From: Christensenella timonensis
GTDB lineage: Bacteria; Bacillota; Clostridia; Christensenellales; Christensenellaceae
Assembly (NCBI RefSeq): GCF_900087015.1
Contig: NZ_FLKP01000002.1
Span: 868,001 to 932,000 of the forward strand
Direction of reading: 5' to 3'
DNA: 64,000 bases
Part shown: piece by piece, positions 58,841 through 62,856 of the stretch
Layout of the letters: every line of letters begins with the position of its first letter
Numbering within the stretch: position 1 is the first letter of the stretch
Notes under the pieces: model-generated
Databases searched by the model: none
Told to the model about the DNA's origin: nothing
The model's input: the letters and a program-made list of their open reading frames with translations, nothing else
Made by a program: the position numbers and the translations under genes

Positions 58841-58868
58841 TTGACAATAGAAATCAGCTTGTTATAAT
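58841..58868 (+). promoter_or_regulatory. Strong promoter in the 58.5-59.2 kb intergenic region
   Basis: TTGACA (58841-58846) and TATAAT (58863-58868), both exact consensus, spacer 16 bp. It points rightward, 380 bp before the next gene, and a terminator lies about 125 bp downstream. Confidence 0.7.
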
Positions 58869-58874
58869 GGAAGT

Positions 58875-58997
58875 ATCAACAGACACAATTTTATGATGGC
58901 ATAAGACTCTGGAAACATGTGGAAACAGCTTAAATAGTGTACCTTTTCAAGCAGGCCATATCTGTTTATTCAGGCACCCGAAAGGGTGTTTTTTTTT
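58875..58997 (+). ncRNA. Candidate small RNA or attenuated leader, not identified
   Basis: A transcript from the consensus promoter would run about 123 nt to a terminator (CACCC-GAAA-GGGTG at 58975-58988, then nine Ts to 58997). No open frame with a ribosome binding site was seen in it. Internal pairings include AACAGA (58878-58883) with TCTGTT (58961-58966) and ATGGC (58896-58900) with GCCAT (58955-58959). GGAAAC occurs twice (58911, 58921). I compared it mentally with common riboswitch cores and found no match. It may be a free-standing RNA or the leader of the ABC transporter operon. Confidence 0.45.
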
Positions 58998-59031
58998 GCT
59001 TTTTTTGTTGAACGAAAAGGTACACGTTTCC
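58921..59031 (+). repeat. Inverted repeat enclosing the small-RNA terminator
   Basis: GTGTACCTTTTC (58937-58948) is the exact reverse complement of GAAAAGGTACAC (59014-59025). Directly outside, GGAAAC (58921-58926) pairs with GTTTCC (59026-59031) across a 10-base bulge. In RNA this gives 18 bp of helix around the terminator. Confidence 0.7.
58975..58997 (+). terminator. Rho-independent terminator of the candidate small RNA
   Basis: Five GC-rich base pairs with a GAAA tetraloop, then nine Ts. Confidence 0.75.
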
Positions 59032-59246
59032 ATTCTAAAGATGTGAGGCGGCGAAGCCCGCCCGCACGATGCACCTTTTTTTACTGGAAATTTATTTGGT
59101 TCCGGCTAATGTGCGCCACCATGCGCGACGTTATCTGCCGGGATGATCATAGCTATATTTGAATATGGAGGAGGGAAGGCAAAAAGACGGTTTGGTATTG
59201 AAATAGTACGGAAAGATTTTATCTATTTGTGGGAGGTAACAAGCGG
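59027..59246 (+). other. Remaining intergenic region before the ABC transporter
   Basis: No gene seen. It holds a GC hairpin (GGCGG with CCGCC near 59048-59064) followed by T-runs, a GGAGGAGGGAAGG purine run at 59167-59179 that looks like a ribosome binding site without a start codon at a useful distance, and operator copy 2. Confidence 0.4.
59198..59209. promoter_or_regulatory. Candidate operator, copy 2 (TTGAAATAGTAC)
   Basis: Exact 12-bp copy of the word at 58694-58705, here 37 bp upstream of the ABC transporter ATPase start. No matching -35/-10 pair was found next to it. Confidence 0.5.
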
Positions 59247-60755
59247 ATGAACAACGCAAGAGGAACACCGGTCCTTGAGGTCAAGGGAGTCAGCAAGGCC
59301 TATGCGGGCGTTACGGTTTTGTCCGAAGTGGATTTTGACCTTTATCCGGGGGAGGTACATGCACTGATCGGCGAGAATGGCGCGGGGAAATCGACCCTGT
59401 CGAAGATCATTTCCGGCGTCACGGAAAAATCGGCGGGGACAATGTACCGGAACGGGCAGGAGTATAATCCGGTGGACACACACGACGCAAACAGGCAGGG
59501 GATATCGATCGTGCATCAGGAGTTCAACCTGATCCCCGTCTTAAGCGTCGCACAGAACATATGCCTGGGGAAGGAACATTCAAAGGGCGGTTTCATCGAC
59601 GAAAAGGAAAGCGCCAGGATATCTGAGGATATGCTGAAAAAACTTGAGCTGGATATCCCTGTAAAGAGGAAGGTGCGGTATTTGAGCGTTGCACAGCAGC
59701 AGTTGGTGGAGATCACGAAATGCCTGTGCGAGAACAGCGATATCATCATCATGGACGAGCCGACGGCAACGCTGACGCTCAATGAAACCAAACAGCTTTT
59801 CAAGATCATCAAAAGCCTGCAGGAAAAAGGCGTTTCCATCATCTACATATCGCACAAGCTGGAAGAGATCTTTGCGATAGCGCAGAGGATCACCGTGCTG
59901 CGGGACGGGCAGAAGGTCGGCACATACGGAACGGAAGAACTCGATGAGGAAAAGCTCGTGACGTTGATGGTGGGGCGCGAGATATCCTCCATGTATGAGC
60001 ATAAAAATACCGCGCAGGACGAGGTTGTGCTAAAGGCCGAGCACCTGACGAAAGCCGGGCTTGTAGGGGACGTCAGCTTTGAACTCAAGAAAGGCGAAAT
60101 CCTTGGCTTTGGCGGCCTGGTGGGTGCGGGGCGTACCGAGCTGATGAAGATGATCTTTGGGGAATACCCGATCGATGCGGGCAGCGTCGAGTTGTTCGGA
60201 AAGAAGATCGCCAAACCAAAAATCAAGAATATGGTGGAAAACGGATTGGTGTATTTGTCGGAAAGCCGCAAGGAAGAAGGCATCCTCGCCAATATGCAGG
60301 TAAAGGACAACATCACGCTGGCCGTGCTGAAAAGTATGGTCAAGGGCCTTTTCATCAGTCCGCAGCGGGAAAAGAAGCTTTCCAAGGAAATGATCGGCAA
60401 GCTCGACATCAAAACCCAGGGGTTATCGCAAAAAGTCGGGCATTTGAGCGGCGGCAACCAGCAGAAGGTCGTTTTGGCGAAGTGGCTGGCGACGGACGTC
60501 AAGGTGCTGATTTTGGACGAACCGACAAGGGGGATCGACGTCGGGGCGAAGCATGAGATCTATAAGCTGATGAACGAGCTTTGTGCAAAAGGGATATCGA
60601 TCATCATGATATCCAGCGAAATGCCCGAGCTGATCGGCATGTGTGACCGCCTGATCGTAATGTCGGAGGGCAGGATGACGGCGGAACTCCGCGGTGACGA
60701 GATACAGGAAACAGCTATCATGAACGCGGCGATCCAGCGCGGTTACAAAATTTGA
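59247..60755 (+). CDS. Ribose-type sugar ABC transporter, double ATP-binding protein (RbsA family)
   Basis: About 502 residues with two ATPase halves. The first has GENGAGKSTLSK, LSVAQQQLVEI and IIIMDEPTATL. The second has the degenerate GGLVGAGRTELMK, the signature LSGGNQQKVVLAKWLA and LILDEPTRGIDVGAK. This is the usual pattern for ribose/galactose/nucleoside importers. ATG 59247 has GGGAGGT 9 bp upstream; an in-frame GTG at 59229 overlaps that site and is unlikely. First gene of an operon with its permease 15 bp downstream. Confidence 0.93.
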   Translation: MNNARGTPVLEVKGVSKAYAGVTVLSEVDFDLYPGEVHALIGENGAGKSTLSKIISGVTEKSAGTMYRNGQEYNPVDTHDANRQGISIVHQEFNLIPVLSVAQNICLGKEHSKGGFIDEKESARISEDMLKKLELDIPVKRKVRYLSVAQQQLVEITKCLCENSDIIIMDEPTATLTLNETKQLFKIIKSLQEKGVSIIYISHKLEEIFAIAQRITVLRDGQKVGTYGTEELDEEKLVTLMVGREISSMYEHKNTAQDEVVLKAEHLTKAGLVGDVSFELKKGEILGFGGLVGAGRTELMKMIFGEYPIDAGSVELFGKKIAKPKIKNMVENGLVYLSESRKEEGILANMQVKDNITLAVLKSMVKGLFISPQREKKLSKEMIGKLDIKTQGLSQKVGHLSGGNQQKVVLAKWLATDVKVLILDEPTRGIDVGAKHEIYKLMNELCAKGISIIMISSEMPELIGMCDRLIVMSEGRMTAELRGDEIQETAIMNAAIQRGYKI

Positions 60756-60770
60756 GGAGGGTACAATCCT

Positions 60771-61775
60771 ATGTTTACAACAGGGAATGATTTGGTTCAG
60801 ACCAAAAAGAAAAAGAGCTTGAAAGCGATCCTTTTAAAAACGGGCGTGTTCTGGAGCCTGGCTGTGCTGGTCGTGATCCTGGCGATCGCGTCCAACCAGT
60901 TTTTGACGGGCCCCAACTTATTGAACGTTGCGCGGCAGGTCGTCATCATGGCAATCCTGGGCATCGGCGGCACGTTCGTCATCATCGGCGGCGGCATTGA
61001 CCTTTCCGTCGGTTCGCTGCTTGCCCTTGCAAGCGCATATTCCGCGGGGGTCATGGTAGCGACAGGGTCTTTGGCGCTTGCCGTTTTGGTAGCGCTTGTC
61101 ACGGGCATCGGTTTTGGGTTCATGCAGGGCTTCATCATTACAAAATTCAATGTGGCTCCCTTTGCCATCACGCTGGGGGGTATGTCTGTATTCCGGGGGA
61201 TGACGCTGCTTTTTACCAACGGTATCCCGATCAGTAACCTGCCCAAGGATTTTCGCTGGTTTGGGTCGGGTACGATCGGCGGGAGCTTCCCCGTCCCGGT
61301 GCTGATCCTGATCATCGTGGCGGTAATCGCGTACCTGGTCTTGGGCAAGACAAAACTGGGACGGTATGTGTATGCCATTGGCTCCAATGAAAACACCACG
61401 CGCCTTTCAGGCATCAACGTCAACTTTTACCGTACGCTCACGTATGTGATCTCAGGTGTGTGCTGTGCGATTGCAGGCATCGTCCTTACGGGACGTATCA
61501 ATTCCGCGCATCCGTACGCAGGGCAGGGGTATGAACTCAACGCGATCGCAGCGGTCGTTATCGGCGGCACGAGCCTGCAGGGAGGAGAGGGAACGATTTA
61601 CGGCACGATCATCGGCGCGCTGATCATCGGCATCATAGAAAACGGGCTCAACCTGCTGCAGATCAACGCATTCTGGCAGGATGTGGCGGTAGGCGTTGTC
61701 ATCATGATCGCGGTCATCATCGACCGCCTGCGGATCAACCTCACAGAATCGATGGCGCAGGCAGGCGAAGCTTAA
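60771..61775 (+). CDS. Ribose-type sugar ABC transporter permease (RbsC family)
   Basis: 334 residues with eight to ten membrane helices. NQFLTGPNLLNVARQVVIMAILGIGGTFVIIGGGIDLSVGS is the hallmark N-terminal region, followed by KLGRYVYAIGSNENTTRLSGINV and NAIAAVVIGGTSLQGGEGTIYGTIIGALIIGII. It forms the channel for the sugar. GAGGAGGGT precedes the ATG. Only one permease gene is present, so it should work as a homodimer. Confidence 0.93.
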   Translation: MFTTGNDLVQTKKKKSLKAILLKTGVFWSLAVLVVILAIASNQFLTGPNLLNVARQVVIMAILGIGGTFVIIGGGIDLSVGSLLALASAYSAGVMVATGSLALAVLVALVTGIGFGFMQGFIITKFNVAPFAITLGGMSVFRGMTLLFTNGIPISNLPKDFRWFGSGTIGGSFPVPVLILIIVAVIAYLVLGKTKLGRYVYAIGSNENTTRLSGINVNFYRTLTYVISGVCCAIAGIVLTGRINSAHPYAGQGYELNAIAAVVIGGTSLQGGEGTIYGTIIGALIIGIIENGLNLLQINAFWQDVAVGVVIMIAVIIDRLRINLTESMAQAGEA

Positions 61776-61830
61776 AACTAAATGGAATGAGGTTTGGGTA
61801 CAACCCAAAAAACGATAGGAGGAAGAATGA

Positions 61831-62856
61831 ATGAAGAAAATGAAATTGGTAGTACTGGCAGTGGTGATCGCAATGCTGTTTTCCATGATGGCAGCATGCT
61901 CGGCGCCCGCGGCGGAACCGTCGGAAGCGGCCTCGCAGAGTGCGGAGGCATCCGTGGCCCCGTCTGACGGCGCGGCGGCAGATGCTTCGGCAGAACCGGC
62001 GGCAAAGGATGCGTATAACTTTGTATTCTTATCGCCCAACCAAGGAAACCCGTTCTGGGTGTCCGTATCGGAAGGCGTGAAGCAGACGGCCGAAGCGAAG
62101 GGCGCGACGGTCACGGTATACGATGCACAGGACGACCCGGCAAAACAGGTCAGCCAGGCGGAGGATGCGATCCTCGCAGGCGTGGACGCGCTTTTTGTCA
62201 GCCCGTTTGAAACGGATACCGGCACGGCGATCACGGAAAAGGCCAATGAAGCGAACATCCCGGTATTTATCCTCGATACAGGCGCGGAAGGCGATTACAC
62301 CGCGTTTATTACGTCGGATAATAAGCAGGGCGGAAAAGTGGCGGCAGAATACTTGCTGGAAAATACTGGGGACGACAGGAACATTGCGGAGCTGCAGGGC
62401 CTGATCGGCCGTGTGATCCCGGCGCAGCGCGGCGTTGGTTTTAACGAAGTGATGGATGAAAAGGGCGTGAAAGTCAACTATGTACAGCCGGCGGACTTCA
62501 ACCGTTCCAAGGGCATGGACTTGATGGACACCTTCCTGACGCAGGATCCGGCGATCAATGCGGTATTCTGCTGGAACGACGAGATGGCGCTGGGCGCGAA
62601 GGAAGCGATTGCGGCGCACGGCCTGACGGACAAGGTGCTGCTCATCGGTTTTGACGCGACGGACGAAGGCCTGCAGGCGGTAAAGGACGGAGAAATGGCC
62701 GCTACCGTGGCACAGAACCCATTTGGCTTCGGTGAAATGGGCGTTGAGCTTGCGTACAAGCACTTCAACGGCGAAAGCTTTGAAAAAGACGTGCTGATCG
62801 AGTGCGAACTGATCACAAAGGACAACGTGGACGAATATATGGCTTCCCACAAATAA
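61831..62856 (+). CDS. Ribose-type sugar-binding lipoprotein (RbsB family)
   Basis: 341 residues. Lipobox MMAAC (Cys near residue 23), an Ala/Ser/Glu linker, then a periplasmic-binding-protein I fold: FVFLSPNQGNPFWVSVSEGVKQTAEAKGA, DAILAGVDALFVSPFETDTG, GRVIPAQRGVGFNEVM, AVFCWNDEMALGAKEA and IGFDATDEGLQAVKDGEMAATVAQNP. The pattern is that of ribose, allose or related pentose/hexose-binding proteins. The ligand cannot be fixed. AGGAGGAAG precedes the ATG. Confidence 0.93.
   Translation: MKKMKLVVLAVVIAMLFSMMAACSAPAAEPSEAASQSAEASVAPSDGAAADASAEPAAKDAYNFVFLSPNQGNPFWVSVSEGVKQTAEAKGATVTVYDAQDDPAKQVSQAEDAILAGVDALFVSPFETDTGTAITEKANEANIPVFILDTGAEGDYTAFITSDNKQGGKVAAEYLLENTGDDRNIAELQGLIGRVIPAQRGVGFNEVMDEKGVKVNYVQPADFNRSKGMDLMDTFLTQDPAINAVFCWNDEMALGAKEAIAAHGLTDKVLLIGFDATDEGLQAVKDGEMAATVAQNPFGFGEMGVELAYKHFNGESFEKDVLIECELITKDNVDEYMASHK

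Follow-up and report, generated by a model that had tools for sequence, protein, structure and literature searches.

A predicted invertible terminator cassette upstream of a sugar transporter operon in Christensenella timonensis and its dispersed relatives

The window (the whole stretch of DNA analysed here, 64,000 nt) contains, upstream of a sugar ABC transporter operon, an element that is best explained, with a probability of about 0.7, as an invertible cassette of approximately 100 bp in which an intrinsic terminator is placed between crossover sites, in inverted orientation, for a small Mpi/Sin-like serine recombinase. This reading draws on the membership of the element in a dispersed family, on the paired sites with matching core dinucleotides, on the link between such sites and recombinase genes, and on the inversion seen at a recombinase-linked homologue.

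In the current orientation, transcripts from the upstream promoter would stop after about 123 nt, at about position 58997, and the sugar ABC operon would be OFF. A recombinase would pair the two sites and exchange strands at their 2-bp cores (Table 1), inverting the segment between them; the hairpin would then be followed by CTGAATAAA rather than by a T-run, RNA polymerase would read through, and the operon would be ON. Other members of the family probably do likewise for other promoters, many of them those of sugar transport and metabolism genes, and cells would gain a heritable, reversible choice of operons. The broader proposition, namely that mobile invertible terminator cassettes served by one or a few Mpi/Sin-like invertases gate promoters of sugar-uptake and other metabolism genes throughout the genome and spread to new sites, where further phase-variable operons arise, appears to have an even chance of being correct.

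The element in the window

The earlier note on this DNA, made from the sequence alone, had described an exact TTGACA/TATAAT promoter, a stretch of about 123 nt that ends in a GAAA-tetraloop terminator with nine Ts, and an enclosing inverted repeat that reaches past the T-run, and all these parts are recovered in the present analysis (Table 1). The promoter is located about 60 nt before the cassette, and a scan for plus-strand promoter-like sites (at least 9 of 12 consensus positions) lists none between the promoter or the cassette and the ABC gene. The repeat consists of 12 exact base pairs (GTGTACCTTTTC, positions 58937-58948, and GAAAAGGTACAC, positions 59014-59025), with GGAAAC/GTTTCC outside. 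In the native orientation, 8 of the 9 positions after the aligned hairpin are T, compared to 2 of 9 in the flipped orientation, where CTGAATAAA would take the place of the T-run. The 161-nt RNA folds with -44.8 kcal/mol (z -3.8 relative to shuffles), and the 124-nt terminated RNA by itself is no more stable than shuffled sequences (z -0.9).

The setting given in the note, between a sugar kinase operon and a sugar ABC operon, also holds and suits regulation: a BtpA-family gene and a PfkB kinase gene lie to the left on the minus strand (Pfam and NCBIfam matches), and on the right, on the plus strand, the genes of the ribose-type ABC ATPase, permease and binding protein are accompanied by a gene for a glycyl-radical activating enzyme. 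Likewise in agreement with the note, which had recognised no known RNA family, a search against 4227 Rfam families finds nothing at the gathering score; the best match under lax settings, Gut-1 on the minus strand with 19.4 bits (gathering score 50), is a chance hit. The promoter, the terminator and the enclosing repeat are all real, but the reading of the repeat as an RNA switch is probably wrong; the terminator would act in RNA, and the inverted repeat most likely at the DNA level. The stretch from the cassette to the ABC gene also has a G+C-rich hairpin (59040-59085), with seven Ts separated from it by a gap; the folding of this hairpin is no better than that of shuffles (z -0.06).

Table 1. 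Features of the element and its surroundings (positions in the window)
Feature	Positions	Strand	Basis
Sigma-70-type promoter, TTGACA-16 nt-TATAAT	58841..58868	+	12/12 consensus; boxes 58841-58846 and 58863-58868, spacer 16 nt; outside the invertible segment
Predicted short terminated leader RNA, ~123 nt, OFF orientation	58875..58997	+	Positions of promoter and terminator
Whole cassette, one member of the dispersed family	58930..59029	+	79.5 bits, E 7.7e-15 with model R3, which excludes the window (E-value rough, from a short calibration)
Left predicted recombination site	58932..58952	+	Core GT 58939-58940, inner half ACCTTTTC...; alignment A4, pair counts
Right predicted recombination site, inverted	59010..59029	-	Core AC 59022-59023, equal to GT on the minus strand
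Segment between the cores, predicted to invert	58941..59021		Paired cores, and inversion at the recombinase-linked homologue
Intrinsic terminator within the segment (GAAA loop, nine Ts)	58973..58997	+	Fold -10.8 kcal/mol, z -3.7; stem 58973-58990, nine Ts 58989-58997
Putatively controlled operon: ribose-type ABC ATPase, permease, substrate-binding protein	59229..62856	+	Pfam and NCBIfam matches

The cassette family in Christensenella

The element in the window is a member of a family that is dispersed in the genus Christensenella, which includes, as one of the congeners, C. hongkongensis. The covariance model R3, derived from 19 other elements, recovers the window element (Table 1), and because this model was built without the window, the assignment is not circular. 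A DNA search reveals a second, diverged copy of the terminator with its arm in the window's own genome (G000) and further copies across the genus. A covariance model of five copies identifies 11 further distinct places with E<1e-3 in G000, G001 (C. hongkongensis HKU16), G003 and G005, and the members in G002 and G004 are weak with this model (E 0.008 and 0.026). A model of 20 copies finds 20 distinct places at E<=1e-5, which are the very copies from which it was built. The numbers of matches per genome, which are to be read as "at least" because no more than 150 candidates were scored in each, differ between species. An order-wide scan of 151 genomes with stricter filters yields 9 genomes with matches at E<=0.001, six of the genus and three of other families, and loci L086, L087, L092 and L093, from other families of the order, are on visual inspection built to the same plan.

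The alignment A4 comprises 20 of the 25 places, without L068 (unconvincing), L071, L046 and L057 (the right arm aligns poorly) and L058 (weak); the weak model matches L078-L084 and L088 were left out of further analysis. In the orientation with the T-run, the elements consist of the first arm (AAAwrGT-NN-ACyTTTTCGTTC, the form of either arm), some 20-50 nt, a hairpin of the (A)CGCC-loop-GGCG(T) type, the T-run, (A)TGCcTTTTTT, and the inverted arm; the site consensus in A4 is AAAAAGT-AT-ACnTTTTCGTTC. For 18 of the 20 elements, the T content of the nine bases following the hairpin is greater in the native orientation than it would be after flipping; in L038 the two are equal, and in L042 the native one is lower. 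Among viral contigs, the exact-arm pattern occurs in 15 stretches, none of which has the site motif on either arm (2 substitutions allowed), and a single-arm query (14 bp, 2 mismatches) did not discriminate, with 40 matches against 72 for the reversed control.

The 21 terminator-type copies for which the orientation was counted (without L053, at a contig end, and L046 and L057, which have no canonical terminator) include 13 that face the adjacent downstream gene in the sense direction and 6 that are antisense to it, according to a simple ORF caller and Pfam; L040 lies between divergent genes and L059 inside a gene of the URO-D family. The sense copies precede sugar-type ABC ATPases (the window copy, L048 and L065), sugar-binding proteins (L042, L043 and L058), an FGGY kinase (L063), ROK and LacI regulators (L050 and L071), a zinc dehydrogenase (L064), a short-chain dehydrogenase (L056), a PFL-like enzyme (L062), and a protein without a Pfam match (L045). 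The antisense copies lie before genes for a binding protein (L038 and its orthologue L044), DAHP synthase (L039), a sugar-binding protein (L041), an ABC ATPase (L051) and a mannosyltransferase-like protein (L049); under the inversion model, these copies would be in the ON state. Apparently, many cassettes precede sugar-related genes, of which the genus may simply have many. Inward-pointing promoters with 11-12 of 12 consensus positions are detected outside the cassette for 4 of the 13 sense and 3 of the 6 antisense copies (two of the latter being the orthologous pair), and the promoter scan falls below its own shuffle mean for 4 of the 13 and 2 of the 6, respectively, and equals it for L058.

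The distribution of the cassettes suggests that copies have been gained, for example by insertion. In the promoter region of the DAHP-synthase gene, R3 identifies an element in G000 with 83.1 bits, with no match in four of the five congeners and a chance-level match (L220, 19.2 bits, E 0.17) in the fifth; the exact borders are unreadable at this site because the gene upstream of DAHP synthase is a different one in G000. The uroporphyrinogen-decarboxylase-like gene of C. hongkongensis is split by L059 (G001:C26:57736-57836), such that the reading frame is terminated inside the cassette and continues on its far side; the homologues of this gene are only 30-39% identical, too distant for reading the borders. 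Orthologues of the BtpA gene are present in four of the five congeners, at five loci in all, at which neither the inverted-repeat scan nor R3 detects an element. The ABC ATPase of the window has no match at E<=1e-150 in the five congeners, and since the operon is without a close orthologue in the genus, there is no comparison to be made at the window site itself. By eye, L039 (G000:C2) shows, before DAHP synthase, a leader peptide rich in Phe (MAHTSKRFFSTFSFSGLYRYGLFLC) together with a stretch that resembles a terminator, and similar leaders precede this gene in the congeners; this arrangement is likely to be an attenuator that adjoins the cassette.

Paired cores, serine recombinases and inversion

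Small serine recombinases need a 2-bp core that is identical in both partner sites and is placed between similar half-sites. This is the arrangement found in the cassettes: near-symmetrical half-sites surround a core dinucleotide (AT in 7 of the 20 aligned elements, GT in 5, TT and AC in 3 each, AG and AA in one each) that is identical between the two arms in 20 of 20 elements at both positions, compared to the 8.9 and 11.8 of 20 expected from composition (0 of 100,000 permutations). All 13 non-palindromic cores match in the inverted and not in the direct orientation. In the six columns outside the core, the match between the arms is about what composition predicts; the boundary of the arm matching lies at the core dinucleotide. 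The elements were picked by models that reward paired arms, so that the overall match of the arms is partly selected, but the contrast between the columns is not. Some features count against the inversion reading. Covariation between the two arms of a copy extends to the inner half-sites (columns 13, 14 and 19-22), which is not explained by strand exchange at the core alone but could be accounted for by gene conversion or by the history of subfamilies; and, at 100 bp, the cassette is rather small for the substrate of a DNA invertase.

Two elements, L057 in G000 and L046 in G005, directly follow a gene for a protein of about 200 amino acids in which the resolvase domain PF00239 is found (E 2.3e-27 for the G000 copy). 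By sequence, the recombinase is related to Sin/Tn552 bin3 (PDB 2r0q, E 4.8e-30) and to gamma-delta resolvase (1zr2, E 3.5e-19). The only NCBIfam match at the threshold used is Mpi (NF009949), with 51.2 bits for the G000 protein against a curated score of 272; judging from these scores, it is a relative and not a member of the Mpi family. The genus has 22 such recombinase genes at E<=1e-15, a 23rd row of the output being a 36-residue fragment at a contig end, and the 20 aligned recombinases are 31-80% identical to the one from C. hongkongensis. Within 450 nt of the 22 genes, with 2 substitutions allowed, at least two motif copies are found downstream of 6 (a count with the looser motif), a single copy is located 149-179 nt upstream of 4, and none is near the remaining 12. 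Under a stricter definition, for which control flanks were included, inverted pairs are present at 14 of 80 recombinase loci, mostly from Clostridia, and at none of 141 control flanks further away, where the 80 loci are the best 80 of 590 relatives from 84,980 genomes and the 141 flanks are those of 160 possible ones that were long enough. All 14 pairs start within 163 nt downstream of the matched recombinase region; one of the 14 (L122, NZ_LAYJ01000133.1) is the already known C. hongkongensis locus, being contained letter for letter in the G001 locus L090. No recombinase gene was noticed beside the window cassette, and the cores differ, with AG in the recombinase-adjacent segment of G000 and GT in the window cassette.

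At the recombinase-linked locus, G000 and G005 have a common gene order, namely Maf, the recombinase, the element and a small gene, and the inner segment is inverted between the two genomes. A 16-nt block (CATTTCATTTATACTG), the sole aligning block, matches only in the inverted orientation; the local alignment score of the inner segment is 32 inverted versus 17 direct, and none of 2000 shuffles attains a score of 32. The orientation of the left flank is conserved (24 versus 10), that of the right flank weakly so (18 versus 14). In C. hongkongensis, the assembly breaks at this place, and the 3' end of the recombinase gene is joined to three sequences exactly at GTAGAC, with the continuations GTAGACTTTTATAGCC on C9, GTAGACTTTTGCGATC inside C91, and GTAGACTTTTTTGACC where C91 ends. 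Of these continuations, the one on C9 and the one that ends C91 represent a single segment in opposite orientations. The sequenced culture may have contained both orientations, or reads may have been misjoined by the assembler exactly at the crossover site; the former explanation is the simpler one. By extension from this homologue and from the shared sites, we infer that the window copy and the other terminator-type copies can invert as well; no terminator-type cassette is seen in both orientations at one locus, and the sole orthologous pair, L038 and L044, has the same orientation.

The patchy distribution of the cassettes would also be expected of a MITE-like mobile terminator cassette that does not invert, the arms of which are terminal inverted repeats and which inserts mostly between genes; the DAHP-synthase copy of G000, with no match in four of five congeners and a chance-level one in L220, the G001 copy that ends the frame of a URO-D-family gene early, and the match counts (lower bounds) that differ between species are all in its favour. 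This explanation is nevertheless rather unlikely, given that the outer ends of the arms match only at the level of composition while a variable dinucleotide is fully matched, which is the reverse of what transposon ends show, that 13 of 13 non-palindromic cores are inverted rather than direct as in a 2-bp target duplication, and that arms of the same kind flank the recombinase-adjacent segment that has inverted; mobility and inversion are, moreover, compatible with each other. An ordinary terminator flanked by the DNA-binding sites of a regulator, which would act by looping or as a roadblock and involve no recombination, could make use of the near-palindromic arm motif AAAArGT-NN-ACyTTTT, a plausible target for a dimeric regulator. 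Binding of this kind would not require a core that matches between two separate sites (20 of 20) yet varies across elements, and the motif pair is tied to recombinase genes, which renders this possibility highly improbable.

The earlier note had proposed a structured RNA or riboswitch, that is, a cis-acting RNA (including an attenuator) the outer helix of which would work in the transcript. Some observations speak for this proposal: the structure recurs in related genomes with many compensatory changes in the outer helix (57 cells in the structure versus 22 in shuffles; covariation score 0.322 versus 0.156 shuffled), and the location in the 5' regions of sugar-related genes fits as well. The covariation of the arms, however, is un-RNA-like on the terminator strand, where selection at the RNA level would favour G-U and the 20 columns of the outer helix contain 14 G-U against 27 A-C cells (two-sided binomial 0.06). 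If anything, this mismatch test is compatible with an RNA from the opposite strand, in which an A-C cell becomes G-U. The 3' arm begins 16 nt beyond the nine-T run and is thus not yet transcribed when termination is decided, so that the helix of the longer RNA, which the note had suggested might compete with termination, comes too late for that role. In addition, 6 of the 21 elements have their T-run antisense to the neighbouring gene, the terminated RNA alone folds like shuffles, and there is no Rfam match. Altogether, a function of the outer helix in RNA is quite improbable, and the case shows how an inverted repeat with RNA-like covariation can arise from matching recombination cores.

Known inversion systems and further observations

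Most known cases of phase variation by DNA inversion concern surface structures and invertible promoters. The predicted switch in the window would work like that of cwpV from C. difficile, which has a promoter upstream of and outside the invertible segment, a recombinase gene that is not adjacent (PMC2784873), and an intrinsic terminator proposed only in the OFF transcript (PMC2784873; summarised in PMC8844915). The two switches have in common the outside, upstream promoter, a terminator in one orientation only, and the lack of an adjacent recombinase gene. In the same source, the cwpV switch comprises a 195-bp segment with imperfect 21-bp repeats and a terminator at the junction between repeat and segment, and controls one wall-protein gene (PMC2784873); its recombinase, RecV, is called tyrosine-type in PMC5903667. 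Unlike cwpV, the present family has cassettes of about 100 bp with the whole terminator inside, a 2-bp core of the serine type and many copies, many of them before sugar-related genes. Because the type of site and the linked enzyme family differ, the window switch is not filed under RecV/cwpV, of which it is no member.

Mpi segments carry promoters. According to PMC5903667, the Mpi serine invertase of Bacteroides fragilis acts on at least 13 dispersed regions. The cassettes resemble the Mpi regulon in having dispersed sites and a local recombinase related to Mpi (51 bits); they differ in that the segments carry mostly terminators and in a recombinase score far below 272. Sin/Tn552 bin3 and the gamma-delta resolvase have a 2-bp core between half-sites and resolve directly repeated sites; the recombinase described here is a relative of these enzymes by sequence, but the site pairs are inverted where theirs are direct. 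The invertons of gut bacteria, as described in PMC11892184, carry promoters and are linked to tyrosine-type invertases, with terminators named as future work, and neither "serine" nor "Christensenella" occurs in the main text of that paper. The likeness consists in short inverted repeats that enclose a (here predicted) invertible regulatory segment. In the literature searched, which covered few subscription papers, the phrase "invertible terminator" was not found, and no relevant title combines Christensenella with phase variation or invertase. If the inversion reading is correct, dispersed, ready-made invertible terminators would provide modular on/off control for almost any promoter, the apparent targets in this gut genus often being genes of sugar uptake and metabolism, and genomes can be searched for such switches with the site rule of AAArGT-NN-ACyTTT pairs that are inverted and agree in NN.

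Several features of the recombinase loci are recorded here as separate observations. In G003, L112 and L115 contain a single near-palindromic site (TAAAGGTATACCTTTA) 149-179 nt upstream of more distant serine recombinases, and L113 (G005) and L110 (G003) have, in the same upstream range, variants of the site with the core AG or AC; such lone sites are perhaps resolvase or integration sites. The C. hongkongensis switch (L090:3105-3342, L089:3037-3285) includes three copies of GTAGAC, one of which bounds an extra segment of about 35 bp, and is a possible small shufflon. Finally, a family of small proteins (88 amino acids in L046, P0002), with only a chance-level Pfam match (E 0.13), is encoded beside promoter-type invertible segments, whether these are adjacent to a recombinase gene or apart from one (L046:1708-1974; L057, from about 1463 down on the minus strand; L085; L089:2738-3061). 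In G000, the small protein is seen twice (L057 and L085), each time behind a segment that resembles an invertible promoter, and it is possibly a partner or a regulator of the invertase.
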